From: Bacteroidota bacterium
GTDB taxonomy: Bacteria; Bacteroidota; Ignavibacteria; UBA10030; BY39
Length of the DNA stretch: 58,688 bases
Assembly (NCBI GenBank): GCA_030017895.1
Contig: JASEGV010000009.1
Coordinates: forward strand, 1 to 58,688
Direction: 5' to 3'
Shown: piece after piece, positions 6,521-47,987 of the stretch
Position numbering within the stretch: the first letter of the stretch is position 1
Layout of the letters: every line of letters begins with the position of its first letter
Notes under the pieces: generated by a model
The model's database searches: none
Seen by the model: the letters and a program-made list of their open reading frames with translations, nothing else
What the model was told of the DNA's origin: nothing
Made by a program: the position numbers and the translations under genes

Positions 6521-7434
6521 CCTTCCTCTCCCCGCTTTTGTAGTCTGAACTGGATAATTGATCCGATCAGAATTATTACAAACAGTACAAACGCCAATGA
6601 TGCCGAGTATCCCATATTCCACCAACGAAATCCTTGCTGGTACATCAATAATACAATGCTGAGAGTGCTGTTAAGCGGACCTCCTTGTGTCATGACATAC
6701 GGCTCTGCGAATAGCTGGAAATATCCAATCATTGTGATAATGCTGACGAAGAGTGTCGTGGGAGCTAACATCGGAATTGTGATAAAAAGAAATTGCTGCC
6801 GGGCATTTGCACCGTCGATGCGCGCGGCTTCATACAGTTCATCCGGGATATTTTGCAATCCTGCAATAAATATGATCATGTTATATCCGAAGTTTTTCCA
6901 GACCGCCAGCAGGATGATAGCAGGCATTGCATAAGTTGGATCGCCTAACCAATCGATAGGGGTAACTCCGAAAAAGCTTAGAAAGTAATTCAACAACCCA
7001 AACCTTGGATGGTAAACGAACCGCCAAACTACAGCGATGGCAACGAGTGTAGTTACGACGGGCGCAAAGTAAATTACACGGAAGAAGCTTTTGAAACGCA
7101 CGAGTTTTGAATTGAGTAGTATCGCAGCGGCTAACGAAACGGCAACAGATAACGGTCCACCAACAAGCACAAAGTAAAAAGTATTTTGGAACGCCTGCCA
7201 GAAAAGCGGGTCGTTAAAAAGTTGTAAATAATTGCGGAAGCCGACAAAACGAACATACTGAATATTCCCTAAAGAGTAAATGTCGAAATCGGTAAAACTC
7301 ATTACGAATGCCGCAATGACGGGTAAGAAGAAAAATATAAATATGGCTGCTAAAGCCGGTGTAAGAAAGAAATAAGCCGCGCTATAAAAACTTTTCGCCG
7401 ATGAACTCGTTATATGTTTCGTTTCAATATACAT
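6517..7434 (-). CDS. ABC sugar importer permease, MalF type
   Basis: Partner permease of the CUT1 importer, 305 residues, in the inner membrane. About six hydrophobic helices are visible, the first at about residues 20-45. The EAA motif EAARIDGANARQQFLFITIP lies at about 205-225. The start (ATG at 7434) is four bases from the stop of the solute-binding protein gene, and the end overlaps malG by four bases, so the subunits are translationally coupled. By context it brings beta-1,2-gluco-oligosaccharides from periplasm to cytoplasm. The substrate is inferred from neighbours, not from the permease itself. Confidence 0.93.
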   Translation of the reverse strand: MYIETKHITSSSAKSFYSAAYFFLTPALAAIFIFFFLPVIAAFVMSFTDFDIYSLGNIQYVRFVGFRNYLQLFNDPLFWQAFQNTFYFVLVGGPLSVAVSLAAAILLNSKLVRFKSFFRVIYFAPVVTTLVAIAVVWRFVYHPRFGLLNYFLSFFGVTPIDWLGDPTYAMPAIILLAVWKNFGYNMIIFIAGLQNIPDELYEAARIDGANARQQFLFITIPMLAPTTLFVSIITMIGYFQLFAEPYVMTQGGPLNSTLSIVLLMYQQGFRWWNMGYSASLAFVLFVIILIGSIIQFRLQKRGEEG

Positions 7435-7437
7435 GCA

Positions 7438-8715
7438 TCACTTTCGGTTCAGCATCCACCTGCGTTTTTCTAAAATTATATTCACATCTTTGTCGAGCTC
7501 TGCAAGAGCTTGATTAACGGATATTTTTTGTGCCGATGCCATTTCAGCATACTGTTGAACTTTCATTGCAATTTGTTCCCACTCAGGAATTTTAGGTGTC
7601 GGTACAACGTGCTTGAACTGTTCATAAAAAGCTTTTACATAGACATTGTTCTTAAACAACGTATCGTTCCATGCTTCTTCAACAGCGGGAAGATTACCCG
7701 TTACTTTGTAAAATTCTAACTGCTGTTGCACTGCCGAAAGATATTCTATGAATTTCCACGCTTGTTCTTTCTTCGTCGAGTTGCGAAAAATCACTAAGCT
7801 GGCACCTCCGGCAAGTGAGATTCCCGGCGTATTCTTATCGGGACCGGGTAGCGGTGCTGTCATCCATTTATCTTGAAGCGCCGGCGGCATTCGTTTTTGA
7901 AACTCACTGATATTCCATGGACCTGTAATATACATAGCAAAAAATCCCTCAGCGATTCCCTGATAGATGTTTGTAACTTGCGTAATACCCACAGGCGCGA
8001 GCTTGTTTTGGTAAAATCGCATTATGTACTCAAAAGCTTTTGTAAACTTCTCACCGCTGAAATCGCCATAACGGTTGTCATTTTTCAACAACGTAGAGCC
8101 GTTTTGTAATCCAGCAACAACAAACGGAACCCATTCGTTTGTAGGCAGCAGAACGGCATATTTTTCTATCCCGCCTGCTAACTGTTTAATTTTCATCGAA
8201 GCATCGAACCACTCATCCCAAGTTGCCGGTGGATTTTTGTAGCCCGCCTGTTCTAAAATATCTTTACGATAAAACATTACCCGAGTGTCAACGTACCAAG
8301 GTATGCCGTACGGAATGTCGTCTATAACATTTGTTTCCCATATCCCTTCGAAATATTTTTCCTTCCTGACGATAGAAGAATTTTCAATCCAAGGATTTAA
8401 ATCTTCTATCGCATTCAGGAGTGTGAATTCGGGAATCCAGGTATTTCCGAGTTGTGATACGTCGGGAGTTGAGTTTCCGGCATAAGCTGTAAGTAATTTT
8501 TCGTGAGCGGCGGTCCAAGGTATTGATTGGACTTTTACTTTAATCCCGGGATTTCTTCGCTCAAACTCAGGAATCAGTTTCTGAACATTTTCGCCTTCAG
8601 CACCCATCGCCCAAAATATGAGAACCGTTTCGGATGAAGGTGATGAACGGCAGCTTAATTGTGAGATGGTTATCAACAAGAGCGAGGCAATCAAGTATGT
8701 AACAATTCTATTCAT
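7438..8715 (-). CDS. ABC importer solute-binding lipoprotein (SBP family 1)
   Basis: A periplasmic sugar-binding lipoprotein of 425 residues. The signal peptide ends in a lipobox (SQLSC, lipidated Cys 22), anchoring the protein in a membrane. The extracellular solute-binding family 1 pattern follows: VLIFWAMGAEGENVQKLIPEF, then RNPGIKVKVQSIPW and DVSQLGNTWIPEF. Lipidated binding proteins are usual in Gram-positives but also occur in this phylum. The start codon overlaps the stop of the GH2 gene (TAATG), so they are co-translated. It probably receives oligosaccharides released by the two GH144 enzymes. Listeria innocua has a characterised sophoro-oligosaccharide-binding protein in an analogous ABC system. 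Confidence 0.92.
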   Translation of the reverse strand: MNRIVTYLIASLLLITISQLSCRSSPSSETVLIFWAMGAEGENVQKLIPEFERRNPGIKVKVQSIPWTAAHEKLLTAYAGNSTPDVSQLGNTWIPEFTLLNAIEDLNPWIENSSIVRKEKYFEGIWETNVIDDIPYGIPWYVDTRVMFYRKDILEQAGYKNPPATWDEWFDASMKIKQLAGGIEKYAVLLPTNEWVPFVVAGLQNGSTLLKNDNRYGDFSGEKFTKAFEYIMRFYQNKLAPVGITQVTNIYQGIAEGFFAMYITGPWNISEFQKRMPPALQDKWMTAPLPGPDKNTPGISLAGGASLVIFRNSTKKEQAWKFIEYLSAVQQQLEFYKVTGNLPAVEEAWNDTLFKNNVYVKAFYEQFKHVVPTPKIPEWEQIAMKVQQYAEMASAQKISVNQALAELDKDVNIILEKRRWMLNRK

Positions 8716-35508: not shown

Positions 35509-36873
35509 TTGAATAATTATAACATACTTTTTTTATCGTTGAACGGTGAGTTGAGTTCAACTTTAGCTTCAAAGTTGCATCGAACTGGTATCTCTATTAA
35601 AAATTTTACATCTATTCAAAAAGTAGAAGAGGAATTAGCATCAAAACAATACCGTGTGTGCATTGCACGTTGTGATAGTGTGGATGATAATTTATTAAAA
35701 TTAACTCAATTTATTAAACAACAAAAACTACCAGTCGAACTCATAGTAAGCTCTAAAACTGGTTTCATCGAAGATGCAATTCGTGTTATCAAATCGGGCG
35801 CAACTGATTTTGTAGTGGGAGACTTGTTCGATCCAAGATTAGTAGAAGCAATATTAAAAGGATTAACAAATTATGGTGGATATTCTACTGAAACAGATTC
35901 TGAAAACGATAAAGCATATTATGAATCTGGCGTAGCACTTATTGGACAAAGTTCTGCGATTTGCGAAATCCGTTCAGCAGTTTCTTTGGTTGCGAAATCA
36001 CAAACAAACGTTTTGATAACCGGTGAAAGCGGAACAGGAAAAGAAGTTATCGCTAAACATTTACATTTATACAGCGATAGAGCAGCAAAACCATTTGTCG
36101 CACTGAATTGTGCGAGTATTCCTAAAGATATTATCGAAAATGAATTATTCGGACATGAGAAAGGCGCGTTTACAGGTGCTTTGCAGAAAAAACTTGGAGC
36201 CTTCGAAATAGCTGATAACGGAACTCTTCTGTTTGATGAAATTGGAGAGATGAGTTTAGATACGCAAGCAAAATTACTCCGAGCAATTGAAACTCAAAAA
36301 TTTAGAAGACTTGGTGGTAAAGAAGAAATTAAAGTTGACGTCCGGATAATCGCAGCTACAAATAGGAACATTACAGAAGCTCTCCAATCGAAAGAACTTC
36401 GCGAAGATCTGTACTATCGACTAAGCGTTATCGAAATTTATATCCCCCCATTGCGGGAGAGAAAAGAAGACCTTCCGTTACTTGTTGATTATTTCTTAAA
36501 AATGTTTGCAAAAAAGTATAATAAATTTATTCATAAATTTTCAGACGAAACATCGGGGCTATTATTTGCCTATGACTGGCCAGGGAACGTAAGAGAATTA
36601 AAAAATATTGTTGAACGAGCGTTGGTGATTTGTCCGACTGAAGTTATCAGTTCACATTATTTGCCTAAAAAATTACAAAAACCAGCACAAAATCGAGAAT
36701 CAATTAATATTCCGATCGGCTGTTCAACACAAGAAGCTGAACGGATGATAATTTTACAAACACTTGCATCCACGGGAAATAATAAAGCTAAAGCTGCAAA
36801 AATTTTAGGAGTCAGCCGGAAAACACTCCACAACAAATTAGCAATTATCCAACAAACAGGACGAGAGAGATAA
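35509..36873 (+). CDS. Sigma-54-dependent enhancer-binding regulator with degenerate receiver
   Basis: A 454-residue NtrC-family regulator. The receiver-like domain (1-120) lacks the acidic pair after strand 1 (FLSLNGEL) and the phospho-acceptor Asp after strand 3 (VCIARCDS), so it is probably not phosphorylated conventionally. The AAA+ domain (about 145-385) is intact: Walker A GESGTGKE (172-179), the sigma-54 contact loop GAFTGA (219-224), Walker B LLFDEIGEM and LRERKEDLP. A Fis-type helix-turn-helix at the C-terminus (NNKAKAAKILGVSRKTLHNKL) binds DNA. The start is TTG at 35509. It is the only complete sigma-54 activator in the window and the natural candidate for control of the exopolysaccharide promoters at 45.4-45.8 kb. 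Confidence 0.92.
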   Translation: MNNYNILFLSLNGELSSTLASKLHRTGISIKNFTSIQKVEEELASKQYRVCIARCDSVDDNLLKLTQFIKQQKLPVELIVSSKTGFIEDAIRVIKSGATDFVVGDLFDPRLVEAILKGLTNYGGYSTETDSENDKAYYESGVALIGQSSAICEIRSAVSLVAKSQTNVLITGESGTGKEVIAKHLHLYSDRAAKPFVALNCASIPKDIIENELFGHEKGAFTGALQKKLGAFEIADNGTLLFDEIGEMSLDTQAKLLRAIETQKFRRLGGKEEIKVDVRIIAATNRNITEALQSKELREDLYYRLSVIEIYIPPLRERKEDLPLLVDYFLKMFAKKYNKFIHKFSDETSGLLFAYDWPGNVRELKNIVERALVICPTEVISSHYLPKKLQKPAQNRESINIPIGCSTQEAERMIILQTLASTGNNKAKAAKILGVSRKTLHNKLAIIQQTGRER

Positions 36874-39068: not shown

Positions 39069-40637
39069 TTATTTTATAATAGTCATCTGCTTAACCTGTG
39101 TAAAATTCTCTTGTGGGTTGTATAACGAACTCATTTCAATCCGATAAAAATATGTGCCAGAAGTTACTAATTGACCTTTACTGTTGATTCCATTCCAAAT
39201 TACCGATTTATTTCCCGGGTTTTGGACTTCGTTTACAAGAGTAACGAGTTCTCGACCGACTATATTGTACACTGTCAATTTTACTCTACTCTCAAACGGC
39301 AGTTGATAATGAATTTTTGTTGTTGGGTTAAATGGATTCGGATAGTTTTGTAACAGTGAATAATTTGAAATATCAGCCGTGTGTACTGGCTCATCTGCCG
39401 AGAGAATTTCTGTACCCACTACTGCATTTTTTACAAACTGAAGCATTCTGTCCCTATTAGGATATTTGCTTGGAAGATATGCCTCGCCGATATTCCATAA
39501 AATTACACCACCCATACTCGAATCTCTCGCATATTGGATAATGCGATGTATCTGGGTTGAATCTGTATAACTTACCTTTACTTCGTTTGCGGGATTGCCA
39601 TCGTTCGATAATATACTTAAATATGCCGCCTGTGCTTCTGTATCGTATCGCTTTGTAGCAGCAGTTGCTGTATCTAAATATGTCGCAAACATAACATCAA
39701 AATCATAATCCCACGTAAATGTCGGGGTTACTACCCATCTTTGTTTCGGTTCGTGAACACCTTTTAAAACATCGTTCAAGACAGTTCCACCTCGATATAA
39801 CGTCCCGTTAAAATCAATTCCAATGCCGTATTTACTTCTATTCTTCCCACCCCTTTTATACATTTGGTCTAACCAACGTGTTTGGATGGATGTGTAATAA
39901 AGGTTAGTTCCTGTAGGAGGTTGTGGACCATATATTGCGTTATTATGCCAGGTTCTATCTACACCCCAGCCTAAAGATTGTGCCATATCATAAGTCATTA
40001 TATTGATCTGGTCAAATAAATGCTCGTGTTTAGCCCACCACTCCCCAGCCCATCCAGGCAATATGGCTGTAGTCAATAATGGCTTTTTTGTCGGGTCGAG
40101 ATACTGACTTCTAACTTGAAGTGAATCGTATAGTCTGCGAATGAAGGGACCGATACGAGTCGTATCATTAATAGTGCCGGTATTTCTAAACGGTTCAATA
40201 TCCAAATCAAGTCCATCGTATTGACTTGTATCTAATTCTGCTAAAACATTTTTTAAAAAAGTATTAATGTTTGTCGGACTGCAAGCTTCGCCCCAACCTT
40301 CTCCACCGGCTCCTCCGATAGCTAATATGACAGGTCTGCCGTTAGAACGTGCAATTATATTAAACGGTTTTCTTCTTGATGGTAACAAATTACCATAACT
40401 CAAAGTCCCATTCGTATTAGCACTTGCTGCAAACATAATAACGTGTGTAAAGGCAGTCCAATCAATGTTTGCAATTGGTAACTGTCCATAATTAGACGGA
40501 GTTCCTGAACCCATATTAACTTCCCAAGAAGGTAAATAGGCACTTACCCAAAAAGTTGTACTCCCACGGCTTGATTGACCAAAAGATACGGATATTGTCA
40601 AAAAAACGTTCAATATAATTATAGCTAATAGTTTCAT
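39069..40637 (-). CDS. GH18-family protein with C-terminal sorting domain
   Basis: A 522-residue paralogue of the neighbouring GH18 protein. A signal peptide (about 1-20, VSFGQ) is followed by the same barrel (about 27-405) with DGLDLDIE and Glu148. An 80-residue sorting domain (QNYPNPFNPTTKIHYQLPF to the end, VKQMTIIK) replaces the SdrD/B-like module. Export by a type IX-like system is expected. The catalytic block is practically identical at DNA level to copy 1, while signal peptide and C-terminus differ. Recent duplication or gene conversion thus produced two localisations of one activity. A sigma-54-like promoter candidate lies about 63 bases upstream. Confidence 0.9.
   Translation of the reverse strand: MKLLAIIILNVFLTISVSFGQSSRGSTTFWVSAYLPSWEVNMGSGTPSNYGQLPIANIDWTAFTHVIMFAASANTNGTLSYGNLLPSRRKPFNIIARSNGRPVILAIGGAGGEGWGEACSPTNINTFLKNVLAELDTSQYDGLDLDIEPFRNTGTINDTTRIGPFIRRLYDSLQVRSQYLDPTKKPLLTTAILPGWAGEWWAKHEHLFDQINIMTYDMAQSLGWGVDRTWHNNAIYGPQPPTGTNLYYTSIQTRWLDQMYKRGGKNRSKYGIGIDFNGTLYRGGTVLNDVLKGVHEPKQRWVVTPTFTWDYDFDVMFATYLDTATAATKRYDTEAQAAYLSILSNDGNPANEVKVSYTDSTQIHRIIQYARDSSMGGVILWNIGEAYLPSKYPNRDRMLQFVKNAVVGTEILSADEPVHTADISNYSLLQNYPNPFNPTTKIHYQLPFESRVKLTVYNIVGRELVTLVNEVQNPGNKSVIWNGINSKGQLVTSGTYFYRIEMSSLYNPQENFTQVKQMTIIK
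39427..40494 (-). repeat. 1.07-kb coding repeat, copy 2 (GH18 catalytic block)
   Basis: Second copy of 37671-38737. Similarity resumes beyond a one-codon difference and continues to about 40550 (shared FWVSAYLPSWE coding region). Confidence 0.9.
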
Positions 40638-40972
40638 ATCATTGTTTCTTTTAAAATTTTTTAATATTCATCGTTTCATTTAGCTTTTGATATATATCAT
40701 ACAATAAGAGTGCCAGCCGGCACAATTAAGTTGATTTGATGTATTTTCAATAGATTATAGTCATAACCTAAATTAAATCCTAATGGAGAATAGGAAATAA
40801 TTACATCAAGATTATAATGATTACAATATAGGGAATTTGATGGGATAACAACAAATACAGAATTATTGGATAGGATGTGGTTTTTAAAAGAAATTTTACA
40901 AAAACAATTTTTCCAATAAATAGGAAATATATTCTTATTTAAAAATTTAGGTAGGGAACCCCCGACGACCTT
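40638..40972. other. Intergenic region, no gene seen
   Basis: 335 A/T-rich bases between the GH18 start and the stop of the WecA-type gene. The only structure noted is the palindrome GTGCC-AGCC-GGCAC (40710-40723), which overlaps a sigma-54-like promoter candidate. Confidence 0.5.
40700..40715 (-). promoter_or_regulatory. Sigma-54-like promoter candidate for GH18 gene
   Basis: On the minus strand TGGCAC-N5-TTGT (consensus TGGCAC-N5-TTGC) lies about 63 bases before the GH18 start. The -24 element is perfect and the -12 has T for C. It overlaps a palindrome, so chance is possible. Confidence 0.35.
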
Positions 40973-42916
40973 CTAATGCATCATGTTTTGCATTGATGAT
41001 TCGGATTTATCGAATGTAAAAATCTGTTGATTATATTTTGAATTCACATTATAGGACTGTAATTCTTCTATTCCGATTTTGGGATACCGTATTTTTATAC
41101 GGTGGGCGTTTGCAATTTTGACTAATCTTTTTATTACTTCTTGTTGAATGTTATCATTAAAGTAAAGAATTTCATCTACGGCGATTGTTTTTAATATTTG
41201 CGGAAGATTCCAATGACTACCAAGAATTTTAAAACCATTTATTCGCTTCCCTAATAGATGAGGATCATCATCAAGAAGACCCACAGGAAATATATTATAA
41301 AATGAATTTTTAGTAATCTGTTCTATTATCTTTAATCCATCGGCGCCCGCTCCATAAACCAATACTTTTTTTCTACCATTCGGATCATCATTGTGCGATA
41401 AATAATTAAGTATATTAAACAACAACCTGCCCCCAAGAACGAATGTAGTTAGCAAGTAAAAATTTAAAAGTAAAAAACTTAAATTTAAGTAACTAAAAGA
41501 TTGATGCGCTATAGAAAAAATAAGCCAAGTAAAGAACACCGCAACGATTATCGCTTTCAGTATCTTCAATAAATCACCTAATCCTAATTGTTTCATTGTC
41601 AGTTTATAAATTCCGCCGAAGAATAATATTGAAAACTGTGTTCCGGATATAATCGCAAGGTCTTTGTAAAATGATTTGTCATACAAAAAATCGGCTTGAT
41701 AGATTATCGATGTTAAATAATAAGTAATTCCAAAAGCAAGTGAAATAGATACAAGATCAAGAAAACCATGGAAAAGACTGCTCTTGAAAAATGGTTTTTC
41801 ATAAATGGGCAATAATGTTCCATTACGCAAAAGCGCCATTTCTTTGTAACCCAATTGGCTGACACCTAAAAATGTTGCCAGTCCGATTATTATCAAAATC
41901 GGAATAGCAATTATCGTATTTGCAATGGTTATAGCAAAAGCACCGACACTAAATATGATAGAGACTACATAAAGTATGATTACAACTTTGCGGTCGGATA
42001 TTCCGAAAGACATTAAGCGATGGTGCACATGACCTTTATCAGGATAAAATATAGAAACGACCTTTTTTATGAATGGTCTGGAATCTTCATAATCTCCAAC
42101 AATTGATCGCATCGACCTGCGTAACATCGAAAGTAATGTATCCATAATCGGTAATCCTAAAATGAGTATTGGTACGATTATAGAAAATGCTGTCGAACCT
42201 TTGGTCGTACTCATCATCGAAAGAATTGCTAAAGCAAAGCCAATGAATAAACTTCCCGAATCACCCAAAAATATTTTCGCCTTATTAAAATTGTATCTCA
42301 AAAAACCTAAAGTGGCACCTATTAACAATAAAGAGAGAAAAGAGGAAGTCAAATCATCACGTAAAAGTGATAACGAAAACATAGTTATTGAAGCAATCAA
42401 AGCTATACCCGACGCAAGTCCGTCAAGCCCATCAATAAGATTGAATGCATTCGTAATACCTACAATCCAAAGTATAGTAGCGGGGTAATCAAATATACCT
42501 AAATTCATTAACTCAAGGTCGAATGGTGAAGTAATAGCCGAAATCCTAAAACCAGCAAGATAAACTAGCGTGGCGGCGAGCCACTGTCCGATAAATTTTT
42601 TACCCGGGCTAATCTGTTTTATATCGTCCCAAATGCCTAAGATTAATACCAAAGTTAATGAAACGAGTAACATAATACCCGTTGATGGATTAATAAAATT
42701 TATAGTAGGATTGAAGTATATACAAAGCACTAACGAGATAAAAAAGCTCAAATAAATAGCCAAACCACCTAACCGGGGAATAGGAAATTTGTGAACTTTT
42801 CGTTCATTGGGAATGTCCATCGCCCCCGCATACTTCGCAAGTGAGATTATTGCTGGTGTCAAAACTAAAGACATCAATAATGGAATTGTAAATATGATTA
42901 TAAATTGATATAACAT
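40973..42916 (-). CDS. WecA/MraY-type glycosyl-1-phosphate transferase fused to Rossmann domain
   Basis: A 647-residue membrane protein. The N-terminal half (about 1-350) is a polyprenyl-phosphate sugar-1-phosphate transferase with NERKVHKFPIPRLGG, WDDIKQISPGKKFIGQ (Asp97-98), NLIDGLDGLASG (159-170), KIFLGDSGSLFIGF and GHVHHRL. This half should start the repeat unit by loading a sugar phosphate onto undecaprenyl phosphate. About four more membrane helices follow (380-510). A Rossmann fold comes last (about 538-630, KKVLVYGAGADGLKIIEQI), like the N-terminal part of FlaA1/CapD-type dehydratases but without their catalytic SDR domain. It is the last gene of the minus-strand exopolysaccharide arm. 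Initiating role is well supported; the role of the C-terminal half is not known. Confidence 0.9.
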   Translation of the reverse strand: MLYQFIIIFTIPLLMSLVLTPAIISLAKYAGAMDIPNERKVHKFPIPRLGGLAIYLSFFISLVLCIYFNPTINFINPSTGIMLLVSLTLVLILGIWDDIKQISPGKKFIGQWLAATLVYLAGFRISAITSPFDLELMNLGIFDYPATILWIVGITNAFNLIDGLDGLASGIALIASITMFSLSLLRDDLTSSFLSLLLIGATLGFLRYNFNKAKIFLGDSGSLFIGFALAILSMMSTTKGSTAFSIIVPILILGLPIMDTLLSMLRRSMRSIVGDYEDSRPFIKKVVSIFYPDKGHVHHRLMSFGISDRKVVIILYVVSIIFSVGAFAITIANTIIAIPILIIIGLATFLGVSQLGYKEMALLRNGTLLPIYEKPFFKSSLFHGFLDLVSISLAFGITYYLTSIIYQADFLYDKSFYKDLAIISGTQFSILFFGGIYKLTMKQLGLGDLLKILKAIIVAVFFTWLIFSIAHQSFSYLNLSFLLLNFYLLTTFVLGGRLLFNILNYLSHNDDPNGRKKVLVYGAGADGLKIIEQITKNSFYNIFPVGLLDDDPHLLGKRINGFKILGSHWNLPQILKTIAVDEILYFNDNIQQEVIKRLVKIANAHRIKIRYPKIGIEELQSYNVNSKYNQQIFTFDKSESSMQNMMH

Positions 42917-42927
42917 AAAATAATAGT

Positions 42928-43746
42928 TTAAATAGATGCTACAATATTTTCATTACAGGATGATGGCTGTGATAATTGAACATCTCGTAGATATTCCGGT
43001 AAGTGTTTAGCCAAAATAACCTGATTGTTGCACAGAGATATAGAATGATCCACGACAGAGAACAATTGTTTTGTATTGCCAGGCCAATTATAATTCACCA
43101 ATAATTCAAGGGCTTCTCTTGAAAAACCCTTTATAGCTTTTATCGCAGCAACATTCGATTCTCTTAACATTTTTTCGACTAAAAAAGGTAAATCTTCTTT
43201 CCTTTCTCGAAGAGGAGGTATATTAACACTAATCGGACATATTGAAGAATGTACCTCTTTTTTGGGTGGATAGAATGATAATTGAGTAGAATCTTTTTCG
43301 GTTGTTCCGCCAATAATTCTAAAACTTACATTTAACTCCTCGACACCATTCAATCTATGATAATGCTTATTTTTCAGCACGCTGCCAATTTTTGCTTGAA
43401 TGTCCAATGATATTGAAGAAATATTTTCTAAAAAAAGAGTTCCACCGAAAGCCACTTCCAACAACCCTTTATTGATTGCTACACCGGAGACGGTGAGTTC
43501 TTCGAATCCAAATATTTTTTTCTCAAGTTCAGCAGCCGGTATACTGTTACAATCAAACATAATAAAATTATTATTTTTCCGACTGCTTAAATCATGAATG
43601 ATTTTTGCGAGCCCTTCCTTTTCAGTTCCTTGTTCCCCTACAATTAAAACCCCGATGCCACTCATAGATATTAGTTCAACGGTTTGGAAGATGTGGGTCA
43701 TAGCAGGGCTAACATAAAAGCTCGATAATTTTGTTTTTGTTGGCAT
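42928..43746 (-). CDS. Degenerate sigma-54 activator-like AAA+ protein without DNA-binding domain
   Basis: A 272-residue protein clearly derived from a sigma-54 enhancer-binding AAA+ domain (PPLRERKEDLPFLVEKML, YNWPGNTKQLFSVVDHSI) but altered at key sites. Walker A reads GEQGTEKEG (37-45) instead of GESGTGKE. The GAFTGA loop has become TVSGVA (about 85-90). Walker B reads TLFLENI rather than LFLDEI. There is no receiver and no Fis-type helix-turn-helix at the C-terminus. It is therefore unlikely to activate sigma-54 holoenzyme alone. It lies inside the exopolysaccharide operon, 11 bases before the WecA-type gene and 8 bases after the barrel gene. It may modulate the complete regulator at 35509 by mixed oligomers, or have become a structural or scaffold ATPase-like protein. 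Confidence 0.82.
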   Translation of the reverse strand: MPTKTKLSSFYVSPAMTHIFQTVELISMSGIGVLIVGEQGTEKEGLAKIIHDLSSRKNNNFIMFDCNSIPAAELEKKIFGFEELTVSGVAINKGLLEVAFGGTLFLENISSISLDIQAKIGSVLKNKHYHRLNGVEELNVSFRIIGGTTEKDSTQLSFYPPKKEVHSSICPISVNIPPLRERKEDLPFLVEKMLRESNVAAIKAIKGFSREALELLVNYNWPGNTKQLFSVVDHSISLCNNQVILAKHLPEYLRDVQLSQPSSCNENIVASI

Positions 43747-43754
43747 AACTTTTT

Positions 43755-44663
43755 TTATAAATTTAGTGCAATCGAAAGATACATTTCCTGGTTTGTTACT
43801 TTTTGAGGAAATATCGAGTAATCGATTGAAAATATTTTTGTTTGGATTCCAACCCCGATGGTCGCAAATCGTAAATTATTTTCTACTATGTATCCCCCTC
43901 TGAGTACCAAAAAATTTGTAACGTTCATTTCTAACCCACCTTTATACCGAAGGCCGGCTTTCCCAAAAATCTTTTCGTTTGCTAACGCAAATGAAAACAA
44001 CTGATTCTTCATATCTGACGGGAACTTCATTGTAATACCAGCTTGAAGACTGTGAGCTAATGTGATTCGGTTGAGCTGAGTTGTACCTTTATCAATAGAA
44101 TAGTCGATACCATTTCCGATGCTATTCAGAACTAATCCATAACTAATATTTTCAGCAGGTGAATAATTTGCACTAACCGAAGTTCGAACAGACCATAATT
44201 GTGAAACATCGCTTTTTGCAAACCTAACACCTACTAAAGTACCAATACTTAAAGAATGTAAAATTTCGCGGGCATACCCTACATCAGAGCATAACTGCCA
44301 TAATTTAAATTCAGTCGGAGAATTCTTTCGTATATACCCTGTATGGATCAATGACAAGCCAATTGCCATAACTTCACCGGTTTTTAAGCTAATTGGTATA
44401 GCAATACCCTGACTCATTCCATTTATAGATTTTTCCTGCATATGGTTAAACAGTATCGAGTAATTTCGTAATTTCGTAAGCCCTGCCATATTCCAATACA
44501 TTCCGTTCACATCGAAGGCATCAGAAACAAACGCCTCGGCAAGGGCTGCAGATCTGGCACCAAGTACTGTCGATGTTTTGTTGAAATAATTTGTTTGGGC
44601 ATTTGCACAAGCATAAATCGCAAACAAGAATAGAAATAGATATTTAATGTTTTTAGTCTTCAC
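43755..44663 (-). CDS. PorV/PorQ-family outer-membrane barrel (exopolysaccharide cluster)
   Basis: A 302-residue outer-membrane protein with a signal peptide (about 1-22, CANAQ). The family opening is TSTVLGARSAALAEAFVSDAFDVNGMYWNMAGL, with amphipathic strands up to QEMYLSIALNL. It is related to the 20188-21192 product but divergent. Its position between the Wza-like gene and the AAA+ gene suggests a role in secretion or surface attachment of the polysaccharide or of cluster proteins. That is inference. It starts six bases after the export lipoprotein gene. Confidence 0.8.
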   Translation of the reverse strand: MKTKNIKYLFLFLFAIYACANAQTNYFNKTSTVLGARSAALAEAFVSDAFDVNGMYWNMAGLTKLRNYSILFNHMQEKSINGMSQGIAIPISLKTGEVMAIGLSLIHTGYIRKNSPTEFKLWQLCSDVGYAREILHSLSIGTLVGVRFAKSDVSQLWSVRTSVSANYSPAENISYGLVLNSIGNGIDYSIDKGTTQLNRITLAHSLQAGITMKFPSDMKNQLFSFALANEKIFGKAGLRYKGGLEMNVTNFLVLRGGYIVENNLRFATIGVGIQTKIFSIDYSIFPQKVTNQEMYLSIALNL

Positions 44664-44669
44664 GATTAT

Positions 44670-45368
44670 TCAATTAAAGAATCTAAAAAAACTGAAAATA
44701 AAAATTGCTTCTCTCATGAAATCGGATAATTCTCTTATCACATTGTTCTTCTTGGGTACATATACCGTGTCGCCTGGGCGAACTATCGGTATTGCAGAAA
44801 TATTTCCATTTTCGATGTAAGAGACAAGGTCGACTTCAATGGGTAGTGTGTTCAAACCTCCCCGCAATATCTTGATGCTGCGTAGATCAGAGTCCACTGT
44901 AATACCGCCGGCAGTAGATAGAATTTCGATTAATGATAATTCACTAGTGATCGTATAATTATCTTGTCTTGAAACTTCGCCGAGAACAGTAACTTTTTGA
45001 ACAACAACACTTGTAATATTCAATGAAACCTTTATTTCACCTTGGATGTAAACAGATAATTTTTGTTTGAGTTGTTCGATAAATTGGTCTTTTGTAAGTC
45101 CGGCAACAACTATCTCACCGATAAGGGGAACCGTTAATAAACCTGTTTCCTTAACGGGTCCTTGAAAATTAAACTCAGGATACCCCCAAACTATTACTTG
45201 AATTTGATCGCCCAACCTAATTACATAATTATCAGCTTGTGAATCACCATGCATCGGCTGACTGCCTGATCGAATTATTTGTGTCAGATTATCTTTTGCT
45301 ATATCTGCCGAAGAAGAACAGCCCACAATTAATAAAAAAGATAAGAAAACAATTAAGATTAGTTTCAT
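44670..45368 (-). CDS. Wza-like polysaccharide export lipoprotein
   Basis: A 232-residue lipoprotein with a lipobox (LIVGC, Cys 17). The polysaccharide export domain (about 47-125, YVIRLGDQIQVIVWGYPEFN, GLLTVPLIGEIVVAGLT) is followed by an SLBB domain (about 126-205, VTVLGEVSRQDNYTI, GGITVDSDLRSIKIL, RPGDTVYVPK). Wza-type proteins form the outer-membrane exit channel for capsular or exopolysaccharide. At 232 residues it is shorter than E. coli Wza and has a hydrophobic C-terminal stretch that may serve as the outer-membrane helix. It is the first gene of the minus-strand arm and lies opposite the wzz gene across the divergent promoter region. Confidence 0.9.
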   Translation of the reverse strand: MKLILIVFLSFLLIVGCSSSADIAKDNLTQIIRSGSQPMHGDSQADNYVIRLGDQIQVIVWGYPEFNFQGPVKETGLLTVPLIGEIVVAGLTKDQFIEQLKQKLSVYIQGEIKVSLNITSVVVQKVTVLGEVSRQDNYTITSELSLIEILSTAGGITVDSDLRSIKILRGGLNTLPIEVDLVSYIENGNISAIPIVRPGDTVYVPKKNNVIRELSDFMREAIFIFSFFRFFN

Positions 45369-45426
45369 TACGAAGTTTTTTAATGTTCGTTAAGTTGTTA
45401 ATACCATTATTATTTCATTCATATGT

Positions 45427-45442
45427 TTCAAAGGCTATGCCA
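45427..45442 (-). promoter_or_regulatory. Sigma-54-like promoter for minus-strand exopolysaccharide arm
   Basis: Minus-strand TGGCAT-AGCCT-TTGAA: the GG at -24 and the G at -12 are spaced correctly (GG-N10-GA), with one mismatch in the -12 element. It lies about 60 bases upstream of the Wza-like gene and would be served by the palindromes at 45564-45641. Confidence 0.45.
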
Positions 45443-45563
45443 TCATATATGACTGCAAATTGACAATTATTGGGCGATTTTTAAGCGATTAACAAAATCC
45501 ATAATTAATTTTCACTTAAAAACAAATAGTTTTAACACCTTTAGTTGAATAAAATTGTGAAAA

Positions 45564-45580
45564 GTGTAACCTTCTTACAC
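45564..45580. promoter_or_regulatory. Operator/upstream activating palindrome 1 (GTGTAA-N5-TTACAC)
   Basis: A perfect 6+6 inverted repeat with a five-base spacer, repeated with the same half-sites 61 bases away, in the middle of the divergent spacer. Distances to the two sigma-54-like promoters (about 120-180 bases) are typical of enhancer sites. Confidence 0.65.
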
Positions 45581-45624
45581 ACTTAACTCAACAATTAGAA
45601 AGCGATATGCTATATTTATAAAAT

Positions 45625-45641
45625 GTGTAAAATAATTACAC
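45625..45641. promoter_or_regulatory. Operator/upstream activating palindrome 2 (GTGTAA-N5-TTACAC)
   Basis: Same half-sites and spacing as palindrome 1, extended to TGTGTAA...TTACACA. Sites 1 and 2 are 61 bases apart, close to six helical turns, so dimers bound to both would lie on one face of the DNA. Confidence 0.65.
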
Positions 45642-45745
45642 ACATATTACTCGATAATTTTGAAATCAAGTGTAGAATTGAAAAATTTATGAATAGCGTT
45701 ACTTAATAATTAAATAAATACAAAGAAATAGGGATTAATTTTTCA

Positions 45746-45761
45746 TGGCATATAAATTGCA
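45746..45761 (+). promoter_or_regulatory. Sigma-54 promoter for plus-strand exopolysaccharide arm
   Basis: TGGCAT-ATAAA-TTGCA matches the -24/-12 consensus TGGCAC-N5-TTGCW at ten of eleven defined positions, with GG-N10-GC exact. The predicted start near 45772 gives a leader of about 38 bases before the wzz start. Confidence 0.7.
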
Positions 45762-45809
45762 ATTTTTTTAGATTACTTATAAAATATTTAATAATCAAGG
45801 GTAAATAAT

Positions 45810-47156
45810 TTGAATTCAGCTCAACTTACAATTTTCGAAATGATTTCACTCTTTCGGAGAAGAAAGATTTTTTTATTAATTCCGATTGTAATTGTTACTA
45901 CGGTGAGTATAATTGGGGCTTTTATACTCCCAAAATCTTATGAATCATCAACAACGATTTTATATCAACGGGATGAAACTTCTACTCCTATATTAGGATT
46001 GGAAATCAGGTCTTCATTAGGGACAGAAGATAGGTTGAATCTGTATAGAGAAATACTTTCGAGTCGAACCATTTTACAACAACTGATTGACAGTCTCGGA
46101 CTCAAAGAAAAAGCATCCACTGAGAAAGATCGGCAAGCATTGATTGCTTCTCTTGCAAAGAAATTTGACATCGAGAACAAAGGTTCTGGTTCGTTCACGA
46201 TAATATATACCGATGATGAAGCTTTGAGAGCACAAAAGGCAGTCGAAGTTCTCACGCACTTATTGATTGAAACTATTTCTCAAGTTCAGACACAACAAAA
46301 CGACCAATCTGTTCAATTTTTTGAAAATAAACTGAAAGAGACTCGTGAAAAATTTGAAGAAAGTCAACGCAAAATAATTACACTTATCGGAAATCGTGTA
46401 AGCACATTACCGGAACAAAGCAAAATTCAATATACCCAAATAGAAAATGTTGATAAACAGATTAACGATTTGGATGTCCGTTTAAACATTTATCAACAGG
46501 CTCTTAACATATTGCAATCTGTTTCGAAACCGCCACGAATCGAAAAAAATAAAGAAACACTATACAACCTAACGAGAATGGACATCCCATTTGCCTCTGA
46601 TCTGAATTTATTTTTAAAAAAGTATGACGATTTTTTACAAAAATATACTCCACAATATCCGGAAGTAAAGAATGTTGAAAACCAGATTTCTGAATTACTC
46701 ATTCGTATACAAAATGCACTTGAATCAGAAATTGGCAAGAGAAACCCGCAACGAATGGAATTTGAAAATAAGCGAGCTCAACTGCTGGAAAATGTGCAAC
46801 AAACATTTATTAGTGGTCATCTAAATGCAGAACAGGAATCCGATTTTAACCTATACCGGAAATTATATGATGATATGAAAGTGCGTCTCGAGCAAGCCAA
46901 GTCAACTCGAGACCTAGGATACAAAACAGGGCATCAATTTGTTATCCTCGACCCACCGCTTTTACCAACAACAGCTACAAAACCTAAAAAAATCCAATTG
47001 ATCCTTGCCGGTTTGGGTATCGGAATATTTTTAGGTTTTATATCTGTTATTATGCGGGAACTCTTTGATACCACAGTCAGAACACAGAGGGATATTGAGA
47101 TTTATCAAAAGCCAATTATTGCTTATATCTCAGATGGAAACGACGACCGCACTTAA
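45810..47156 (+). CDS. Wzz-type chain-length / co-polymerase protein
   Basis: A 448-residue inner-membrane protein. It has a first membrane helix at about 20-40 (IFLLIPIVIVTTVSIIGAFI), a long periplasmic coiled-coil region (about 45-395, rich in E, K and Q), and a second helix at about 402-422 (IQLILAGLGIGIFLGFISVIM) preceded by a proline-rich PPLLPTTATKP. This is the polysaccharide co-polymerase layout that sets chain length and links Wzy to export. No kinase domain is fused; the partner ATPase is the next gene. The start is a TTG at 45810 behind AAGGGT; an in-frame ATG at 45840 would shorten it by 10 residues. Confidence 0.92.
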   Translation: MNSAQLTIFEMISLFRRRKIFLLIPIVIVTTVSIIGAFILPKSYESSTTILYQRDETSTPILGLEIRSSLGTEDRLNLYREILSSRTILQQLIDSLGLKEKASTEKDRQALIASLAKKFDIENKGSGSFTIIYTDDEALRAQKAVEVLTHLLIETISQVQTQQNDQSVQFFENKLKETREKFEESQRKIITLIGNRVSTLPEQSKIQYTQIENVDKQINDLDVRLNIYQQALNILQSVSKPPRIEKNKETLYNLTRMDIPFASDLNLFLKKYDDFLQKYTPQYPEVKNVENQISELLIRIQNALESEIGKRNPQRMEFENKRAQLLENVQQTFISGHLNAEQESDFNLYRKLYDDMKVRLEQAKSTRDLGYKTGHQFVILDPPLLPTTATKPKKIQLILAGLGIGIFLGFISVIMRELFDTTVRTQRDIEIYQKPIIAYISDGNDDRT

Positions 47157-47204: not shown

Positions 47205-47987
47205 GTGGCAATATCAGATAATCGCATTGAGATCGTCGAAAATCCCGAAAACGAAAAGAACGGCAAAATTATCCGTTTAATAAAATCCGTAATAGTAAAT
47301 CAGGAAACAAGTAATTACATCGACAATTCGGTTATTAAATATAAATACTATAACTCTTTTAATTTTTCGCTTCTTTCACGGGAACGTCAAAACCTAAATT
47401 TCACAGTAGGTATAACGAGCCCTCAAAAAGGCGAAGGAAAAACGCTTATCGCAAGTAATCTTGCTGTCTCTTTCGCTCTGGGCTCACAAAAAAGTACAAT
47501 ATTGGTCGATTTAAATATTGCTAATCCGCGTTTACATAAGATATTCGGAGTTCCCCTCTCACCAGGTTTGACCGAATCTCTGAATGATAGCAATATCAGT
47601 GTTTCGAAAACAGCTATCGAAAATCTTTCGGTACTAACAGCGGGGAAAAAAGTAATTCTACACGAAAAATTATTCCCAAAAACATCAGCCGATGGAACAC
47701 GACCACAACCAATTCAACCATCGCTCGGTTTAGAACAGCTTGCCTCATTCCGTGACGTCTTATATTCTCTTGAACAAAAATATGAGATCATTATCGTTGA
47801 CATGCCGGCAATTAATTCTACGACAATTCCATTGTTATATACAAACCAATTACAAGGACTAATCGTTGTTGTCCAGAGCGAAAGAACTAAAAAAGAAGAT
47901 ATAGATAAATTATTACAGCGAGTTAATGAACGGAATGTTCTGGGATTTGTTATGAACCGGTTTTCAGATAAAGATCATAAGGGATAA
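47205..47987 (+). CDS. Wzc/CapB-like cytoplasmic P-loop ATPase (tyrosine autokinase family)
   Basis: A 260-residue cytoplasmic partner of Wzz. Walker A SPQKGEGKT at 72-80, Walker A' ILVDLNIANPRLH (99-111; the usual Asp-Leu-Arg is altered to Leu-Asn-Ile) and Walker B IIIVDMPA (195-202) identify the BY-kinase/MinD-like family that drives capsule assembly. The C-terminus lacks the tyrosine cluster of true autokinases, so regulation may be by ATP cycling alone. The start is GTG at 47205. The separate Wzz plus ATPase arrangement follows the Firmicute CapA/CapB layout rather than a fused Wzc. Confidence 0.88.
   Translation: MAISDNRIEIVENPENEKNGKIIRLIKSVIVNQETSNYIDNSVIKYKYYNSFNFSLLSRERQNLNFTVGITSPQKGEGKTLIASNLAVSFALGSQKSTILVDLNIANPRLHKIFGVPLSPGLTESLNDSNISVSKTAIENLSVLTAGKKVILHEKLFPKTSADGTRPQPIQPSLGLEQLASFRDVLYSLEQKYEIIIVDMPAINSTTIPLLYTNQLQGLIVVVQSERTKKEDIDKLLQRVNERNVLGFVMNRFSDKDHKG

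Follow-up and report, generated by a model that had tools for sequence, protein, structure and literature searches.

What is left for an enhancer-binding protein (bEBP) to do inside a polysaccharide operon once it has lost its sigma-54 contact motif, its catalytic residues, and its DNA-binding domain? The gene that raises this question occupies positions 42928..43746 on the minus strand of the window, by which we mean the whole 58,688-nucleotide stretch of DNA analyzed here; its ATG stands at 43746, its stop codon ends at 42928, and its product has 272 residues. The initial annotation had marked it as a pseudo-bEBP, and the open reading frame is indeed there, with an AAA+ domain devoid of GAFTGA, of the Walker B Asp-Glu (D-E) pair, and of a helix-turn-helix (HTH). 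A Pfam scan yields Sigma54_activat at residues 13-151 (105.8 bits) and AAA_lid_14 at residues 180-261 (72.1 bits). The same scan detects neither the DNA-binding HTH (HTH_8) nor a regulatory domain in the window protein; both flanking domains are absent, as a FleT-like partner (see below) would require. Judged by its sequence, the window protein is a derivative of the bEBPs that is missing parts of a functional sigma-54 activator.

The damage goes beyond the losses first listed, which are confirmed; Walker A, sensor 1, and both arginine fingers are also damaged or gone. We tabulated motifs for 15 pseudo-bEBPs (the window's included), for 21 rows from the family of P0002 (a full bEBP encoded elsewhere in the window), and for 15 further bEBPs encoded in the window genome. 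Set against the P0002 family, the window pseudo-bEBP reads GEQGTEKE vs. GESGTGKE at Walker A, LFLENI vs. LFxDEI at Walker B, GGTT vs. AATN at sensor 1, KKEVHSS vs. REDLYYR in the arginine-finger stretch (both fingers gone), and GNTKQL vs. GNVREL at sensor 2. Where GAFTGA would stand there is LTVSGV, near a one-residue gap, and the switch Asn has become Asp. These changes are largely family traits. GAFTGA and the D-E pair are missing from 15 of 15 aligned pseudo-bEBPs, and so is the switch Asn, replaced by Asp in 14 and by Glu in one (Asp is also found at the switch in 2 of the 15 further bEBPs from the window genome, and Ser in one). Retention is 1/15 for the sensor-1 Asn, 1/15 for the first arginine finger, 11/15 for the second, 9/15 for the Walker A Gly-Lys, and 2/15 for the Walker B catalytic Glu (as N-E); both fingers are missing at their aligned places in the window pseudo-bEBP and three relatives of its family. 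All 21 P0002-family rows retain the catalytic motifs, with GAFTGA in 18 and EAFTGA in three (L144, L146, L147). Because a second genome of the genus encodes a 96%-identical pseudo-bEBP with the identical frame and motifs, the losses in the window are not chance events, and a frameshift or assembly error can be rejected.

A profile built from 14 pseudo-bEBPs and run against 98 genomes of the order scores its inputs at 340 bits or more and adds one further member (G086) at 286 bits, while the best canonical bEBP reaches 270. A sixteenth member (G030), at a contig end, was found by position and read by eye, and stands outside the motif table and the tree. The gene is present, with these, in 16 of 98 genomes of the order, across five families. 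A class-level sample of 391 genomes returns the same 15 pseudo-bEBP genomes and no further ones, and a phylum-level sample of 395 returns three of those 15 plus two full-length bEBPs (frames of 464 and 487 aa); six candidates per genome were scored in each sample, so a weak pseudo-bEBP could be missed. Among the best 80 of 83 hits in a scan for related loci, L051 alone is a true orthologue; the other 79 have at most 37% identity, and some of these were reused as tree outgroups and some in structure alignments.

The AAA+ tree places the family next to P0002. It was computed from 78 domains out of 155, the 155 being those left from 228 after removal of rows with X and of duplicate domains. In this unrooted tree the 15 pseudo-bEBPs make up one side of a branch with support 100/100, the P0002 family forms its own group at 100/98, and the two together with one near relative are separated from 41 other bEBPs at 99/93. 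We take the pseudo-bEBP clade either to be the sister of the P0002 subfamily or to have arisen close to it; the wording is left broad because the tree is unrooted and the pseudo-bEBP rows are long, and long branches within the clade weaken its fine placement. HTH_8 is kept in two of the 14 members scanned with Pfam, G058 (L135) and G051 (L137), both of them lacking GAFTGA and the D-E pair; the activator parts were therefore lost before the DNA-binding domain. These two branch first in a group of 11, and a group of four (G033, G086, G034, G049) has no HTH. On the simplest reading of these sequences, a single early loss would have removed sigma-54 contact and catalysis, with the HTH disappearing afterwards, probably on two occasions; the split that makes it two is supported at 96/57, and a single loss of the HTH is also compatible. 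On a tree of the Wza proteins, presence of the pseudo-bEBP needs three changes when G030 is scored as present and G044 is omitted, and four otherwise.

P0002 itself (35509..36873, plus strand) has a degenerate receiver, an intact AAA+ domain, and a Fis-type HTH. The initial annotation had named this activator as the partner, a choice that gains from the tree, in which 35509-type activators are the nearest active relatives of the pseudo-bEBP, and from the co-occurrence of the family with the locus. P0002-type activators (called at E 1e-97 or better) and Wza orthologues (E 1e-25 or better) are each found in 27 of 98 genomes, with both in 25, one only in 2 and 2, and neither in 69, a co-occurrence with a Fisher value of 8.6e-19 in a test that ignores the kinship of these related genomes. 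Among the genomes with a pseudo-bEBP, 16/16 have the Wza orthologue and 15/16 a P0002-type activator; in G034, the one exception, no P0002-type match reaches E 1e-85. In the window and in G005, G040, G036, and G049 the activator shares the contig and is no more than about 12 kb away. The window genome has one sigma-54 match and, besides the pseudo-bEBP, 16 strong PF00158 domains (200 to 254 bits), the 35509 activator among them, and a further five weak domains that do not exceed 34 bits; the other 15 canonical bEBP domains are alternative partner candidates.

How P0002 would be controlled bears on what a paralogue might do to it. The phospho-acceptor Asp is absent at its aligned place from 16 of 16 P0002-family receivers aligned, and the family members in G033, G030, and G015 have just 30 to 57 residues ahead of the AAA+ domain. 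By these alignments the P0002 family is a bEBP family without phospho-control; with the acceptor gone the usual switch is missing, and activity would therefore be set another way. The degenerate receiver is compatible with control by a paralogue, and is not proof of it because genomes in which no pseudo-bEBP was found (e.g. G031, G041, G092, G017, G094) have such receivers too. It follows from those genomes that the activator does not need the pseudo-bEBP.

The operon that carries the pseudo-bEBP begins with a gene for a Wza-like export protein (Poly_export and SLBB; 44670..45368, minus strand). Next comes a gene for a PorV/PorQ-family-like outer membrane protein (43755..44663, minus strand; NF033709 at 80.8 bits, under the 90-bit cut-off), which appears as a constant operon component between the Wza-like and WecA-like genes. 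The pseudo-bEBP frame starts 8 bp past this gene and ends 11 bp ahead of the gene for a WecA-like sugar-phosphate transferase with a C-terminal CoA_binding_3 domain (40973..42916, minus strand). Divergently transcribed are a Wzz-like chain-length protein gene (45810..47156, plus strand), first in its operon, and one for a tyrosine-autokinase-like ATPase of the polysaccharide system (47205..47987, plus strand; family matches under cut-offs).

The initial annotation pointed to a promoter at 45.7 kb. A conserved sigma-54-type promoter precedes the pseudo-bEBP operon, but the strong sigma-54-like box at 45.7 kb (TGGCATATAAATTGCA, 45746..45761, plus strand, 48 bp ahead of the Wzz start codon) faces the divergent Wzz operon instead. 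The candidate promoter of the pseudo-bEBP operon is another sigma-54-like box (TGGCATAGCCTTTGAA, 45427..45442, minus strand, 58 bp ahead of the Wza start codon), weaker and imperfect in having TTGA instead of TTGC. Across the whole window, with two mismatches allowed, sigma-54-type boxes are no commoner than expected (21 vs. 20.6 by chance), and the weight therefore rests on comparison across loci. Twenty homologous Wza-Wzz intergenic regions (13 with the pseudo-bEBP and 7 without, their limits set by eye from ORF ends) contain 34 boxes, vs. a mean of 0.67 and a maximum of 5 over 500 shuffles and vs. 1.5 (maximum 6) in random stretches of the same loci. Boxes face both directions in 15 of these 20 regions, vs. 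at most one in the shuffles; in L135 an extra ORF lies between box and Wza. Six further Wza-Wzz regions, scanned without a shuffle control, hold 8 boxes, facing both directions in two (L315, L319) and a single direction in three (L316, L317, L318), with no box in L320. A search for sigma-70 promoters inside the operon (40600-45900) gives 22 matches vs. a shuffle mean of 26.7, no excess.

Between the two boxes lie the inverted repeats GTGTAA-CCTTC-TTACAC (45564..45580), a candidate shared enhancer site, and GTGTAA-AATAA-TTACAC (45625..45641), a second candidate; they are the sole perfect copies of GTGTAA-N5-TTACAC in the genome. At one mismatch or fewer and a spacer of 3 to 7, the repeat recurs in 9 of the 20 regions. 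Outside the two defining regions it is found in 7 of 18, vs. a mean of 0.065 and a maximum of 1 over 200 shuffles, and in 4 of the 20 it is lacking or matches poorly, with 3 or 4 mismatches. From the co-occurrence of the activator family with the locus we infer that P0002 may be what controls the pseudo-bEBP operon.

Our proposal, to which we give about an even chance, is that the pseudo-bEBP, an inactive P0002 paralogue, assembles with P0002-type activators and alters the output of sigma-54 promoters, its own among them, probably downward. P0002 would bind the GTGTAA repeats that lie between the Wza promoter and the divergent Wzz promoter, and would open both via RNA polymerase-sigma-54; the Wza operon, once on, would make the pseudo-bEBP, whose body of AAA+ domain and lid would enter dimers or rings with P0002 subunits. 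A subunit that brings neither GAFTGA nor hydrolysis residues, and has no arginine fingers to lend to the adjacent one, would weaken or retune the P0002 ring, giving a delayed feedback on polysaccharide synthesis. Three of these elements we infer, namely that P0002 recognizes the repeats, that it assembles with the pseudo-bEBP, and that the outcome is negative. The window protein, with its damaged Walker A and no arginine fingers, may enter rings poorly. We judge a negative effect about twice as probable as a positive one, the candidate sign resting on the lost contributions to the neighbour and to sigma-54. In PspF rings that alternate wild-type and glutamate-switch mutant subunits, the mutants keeping GAFTGA, protein remodelling is favoured over DNA remodelling (PMC4132715); a ring with defective subunits need not, therefore, be dead. 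Such rings and the positive partner FleT both speak against certainty, and the anti-activator is the likelier of the two signs.

A bolder form of the proposal, which we put forward only tentatively, would see in these proteins a natural family, the first of its kind, of dead AAA+ subunits that enter sigma-54 activator rings: after a duplication, one activator would have lost sigma-54 contact and ATPase first, become a ring poison or tuner, and later (probably twice) dropped its DNA-binding domain. Ring composition would then serve as the polysaccharide switch, because P0002 itself has lost receiver phosphorylation. A literature search, with subscription journals largely outside it, found no described family of dead bEBP subunits. 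That such inactive relatives are little described, as first annotated, agrees with the sources at hand, where GAFTGA-defective homologues are named (PMC3162934) and a 2020 review has FleT as the only known bEBP without both flanking domains (PMC7175178).

FleT, of Rhodobacter (Cereibacter) sphaeroides, is also the model for the alternative that survives best, a positive partner. Like the pseudo-bEBP it has no regulatory or DNA-binding domain. It is described as being expressed from a FleQ and RpoN2 operon, a sigma-54 operon switched on by its partner FleQ, with which it acts in hetero-oligomers (PMC11999139, PMC7277832, PMC7175178), the counterpart of the pairing proposed here; it is a bEBP without a DNA-binding domain that serves as a positive partner (PMC11999139). 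Its AAA+ domain we take to be complete because FleT is counted among the genuine EBPs in a collection screened for intact GAFTGA (PMC3162934). The pseudo-bEBP differs in having lost GAFTGA, Walker B, and the arginine fingers, and in belonging to a polysaccharide locus. By analogy, the best reading is that the pseudo-bEBP works most like FleT beside FleQ, minus a catalytically complete AAA+ domain. On the positive-partner alternative, the dead subunit would aid P0002 ring assembly, asymmetry, or promoter choice, and full expression would need both proteins. The protein remodelling retained by mixed PspF rings fits this, and so does the stretch where GAFTGA would be, which in 14 of 16 pseudo-bEBPs (exceptions G036 and G055) conforms to a pattern of a different kind, [LIF]xxxx[IV]. 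In AlphaFold models of the window pseudo-bEBP and P0002, whose input alignments comprised nearly the same 35 rows, that stretch is an ordered hairpin in the former (residues 80-85 and 88-93; mean pLDDT of the model 83.9) and mostly loop in the latter. A patterned loop predicted as an ordered hairpin suggests use rather than decay. Against a positive partner stand the P0002-type relatives with intact motifs that exist without any pseudo-bEBP, and the loss of both arginine fingers from the window protein and three relatives, by which they would break a neighbour's ATP site. In the same pair of models the arginine-finger stretch (residues 160-170) is unordered in the pseudo-bEBP, at pLDDT below 50, and forms two high-pLDDT helices in P0002. 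We regard this alternative as a minority possibility, though one to be taken seriously. A profile search of the PDB and structure comparison confirm the bEBP fold and add nothing further: two structures share the top place among matches to the pseudo-bEBP model, LuxO (5ep3; Z 26.0) and NtrC1 (1ny6; Z 25.9, rmsd 2.4 over 239 residues), and the VpsR fold (7v2b) gives Z 24.6 with rmsd 2.5 over 237 residues.

Other known systems share parts of the arrangement. VpsR, TyrR, DhaR, and HupR keep their HTH, bind DNA themselves, and work with sigma-70 RNA polymerase. Like the pseudo-bEBP, these GAFTGA-defective homologues combine a bEBP body with a lost GAFTGA (PMC3162934), and VpsR also controls polysaccharide. 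Unlike them, the window pseudo-bEBP has no HTH, and its clade appears as sister to an intact sigma-54 activator family. In the pairs HrpR/HrpS and VnfA1/VnfA3, both members are activators with DNA-binding parts. They are paralogous bEBPs that form hetero-oligomers on common sigma-54 promoters (PMC9542535). Here, unlike in those pairs, one of the proposed partners is dead. PspA is encoded in an operon controlled by PspF. It is an inhibitor acting in trans on that bEBP (PMC3791423), as proposed for the pseudo-bEBP; PspA differs in being a coiled-coil protein and no paralogue of a bEBP. A bEBP is tied to a polysaccharide cluster in the PrsK/PrsR pair of the XrtA/PEP-CTERM polysaccharide system (PMC9850573), whose families the window Wza, Wzz, and kinase match under cut-offs. 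PrsR is a two-component regulator with PrsK, unlike P0002, which has no phospho-acceptor Asp, and the excerpted account mentions no dead paralogue (PMC9850573).

The position of the gene invites a different alternative, in which the AAA+ body has been reused outside transcription and serves the adjacent export and synthesis machinery as adaptor or nucleotide sensor. The PorV-like gene lies immediately upstream of the pseudo-bEBP in all 16 loci and the WecA-like gene immediately downstream in 12 of 16. Active-site residues have drifted while the body is conserved, with the Walker A Gly-Lys of nine members in keeping with a nucleotide sensor. The clade's apparent sister is nevertheless an activator of the same locus, the Fis-type HTH in two members points to an ancestral role on DNA, and the Pfam scan reveals no membrane or other extra domain in the window protein. 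Reuse outside transcription is in our judgement another minority possibility, of nearly the same weight as the positive partner.

The place of the pseudo-bEBP can also be vacant. The order Wza-PorV-WecA occurs without it in seven loci (L221, L222, L223, L224, L225, L227, L231), two of which have a split frame in one neighbour. It is absent from G013, G018, and G026, where different genes lie downstream, and G087 shows none; in G044 the contig ends behind the PorV-like gene, cutting off the place. Where the gene is present, its frames are open in the members read, and dN/dS (Nei-Gojobori count) is 0.167, 0.115, 0.174, and 0.152 in four pseudo-bEBP pairs. Values for three P0002 pairs are 0.080, 0.062, and 0.063, and the neighbours in the window pair give 0.118 (PorV-like), 0.048 (Wza-like), and 0.130 (WecA-like). 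These counts indicate clear purifying selection on the pseudo-bEBP, under a constraint looser than the activator's. That it is a decaying relic of a duplicated activator hitch-hiking in the operon, as its many missing catalytic residues and the seven otherwise alike loci without it might suggest, is very improbable, because open frames, presence in 16 genomes over five families, the constant place behind the PorV-like gene, and these dN/dS values (0.12-0.17 in the four pairs) contradict it.

If the proposal of an inactive subunit in P0002 rings is true, evolution has given bacteria an inactive subunit dedicated to the control of a hexameric transcription activator, a natural counterpart to the laboratory mixed-ring experiments. 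The order offers a comparative series, of loci with and without the dead subunit, with and without the HTH, and with Walker A intact or broken, and the number of live subunits that a bEBP ring needs would become testable on natural variants. The analysis also names a likely regulon in little-studied Bacteroidota, made up of a polysaccharide locus, sigma-54, and an activator whose receiver has no phospho-acceptor.

Some smaller observations touch the same proteins. A further sigma-54-like box (TGGCACTCTTATTGTA, 40700-40715, minus strand) lies just upstream of the gene for a GH18-family secreted protein (39069-40637). P0002-type activators adjoin GH18 genes in many relatives, and GH18 genes may therefore be further P0002 targets. 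Six loci (L056, L080, L114, L122, L123, L124; seven domains) look deviant in or near the GAFTGA stretch and were rejected as members of the pseudo-bEBP family, since they fall outside the clade (support 99) in a quick tree, where their long branches make their own places unsure. One of them, L080, from a Bdellovibrionota record, has at 7336-8286 (plus strand) a 317-residue frame without GAFTGA or the Walker B acidic pair, beside a normal bEBP; it may represent an independent case of a dead bEBP relative. Genome G051 seemingly has two polysaccharide operons, one with the pseudo-bEBP (L137) and one without (L231), which makes it a natural comparison within a single genome.
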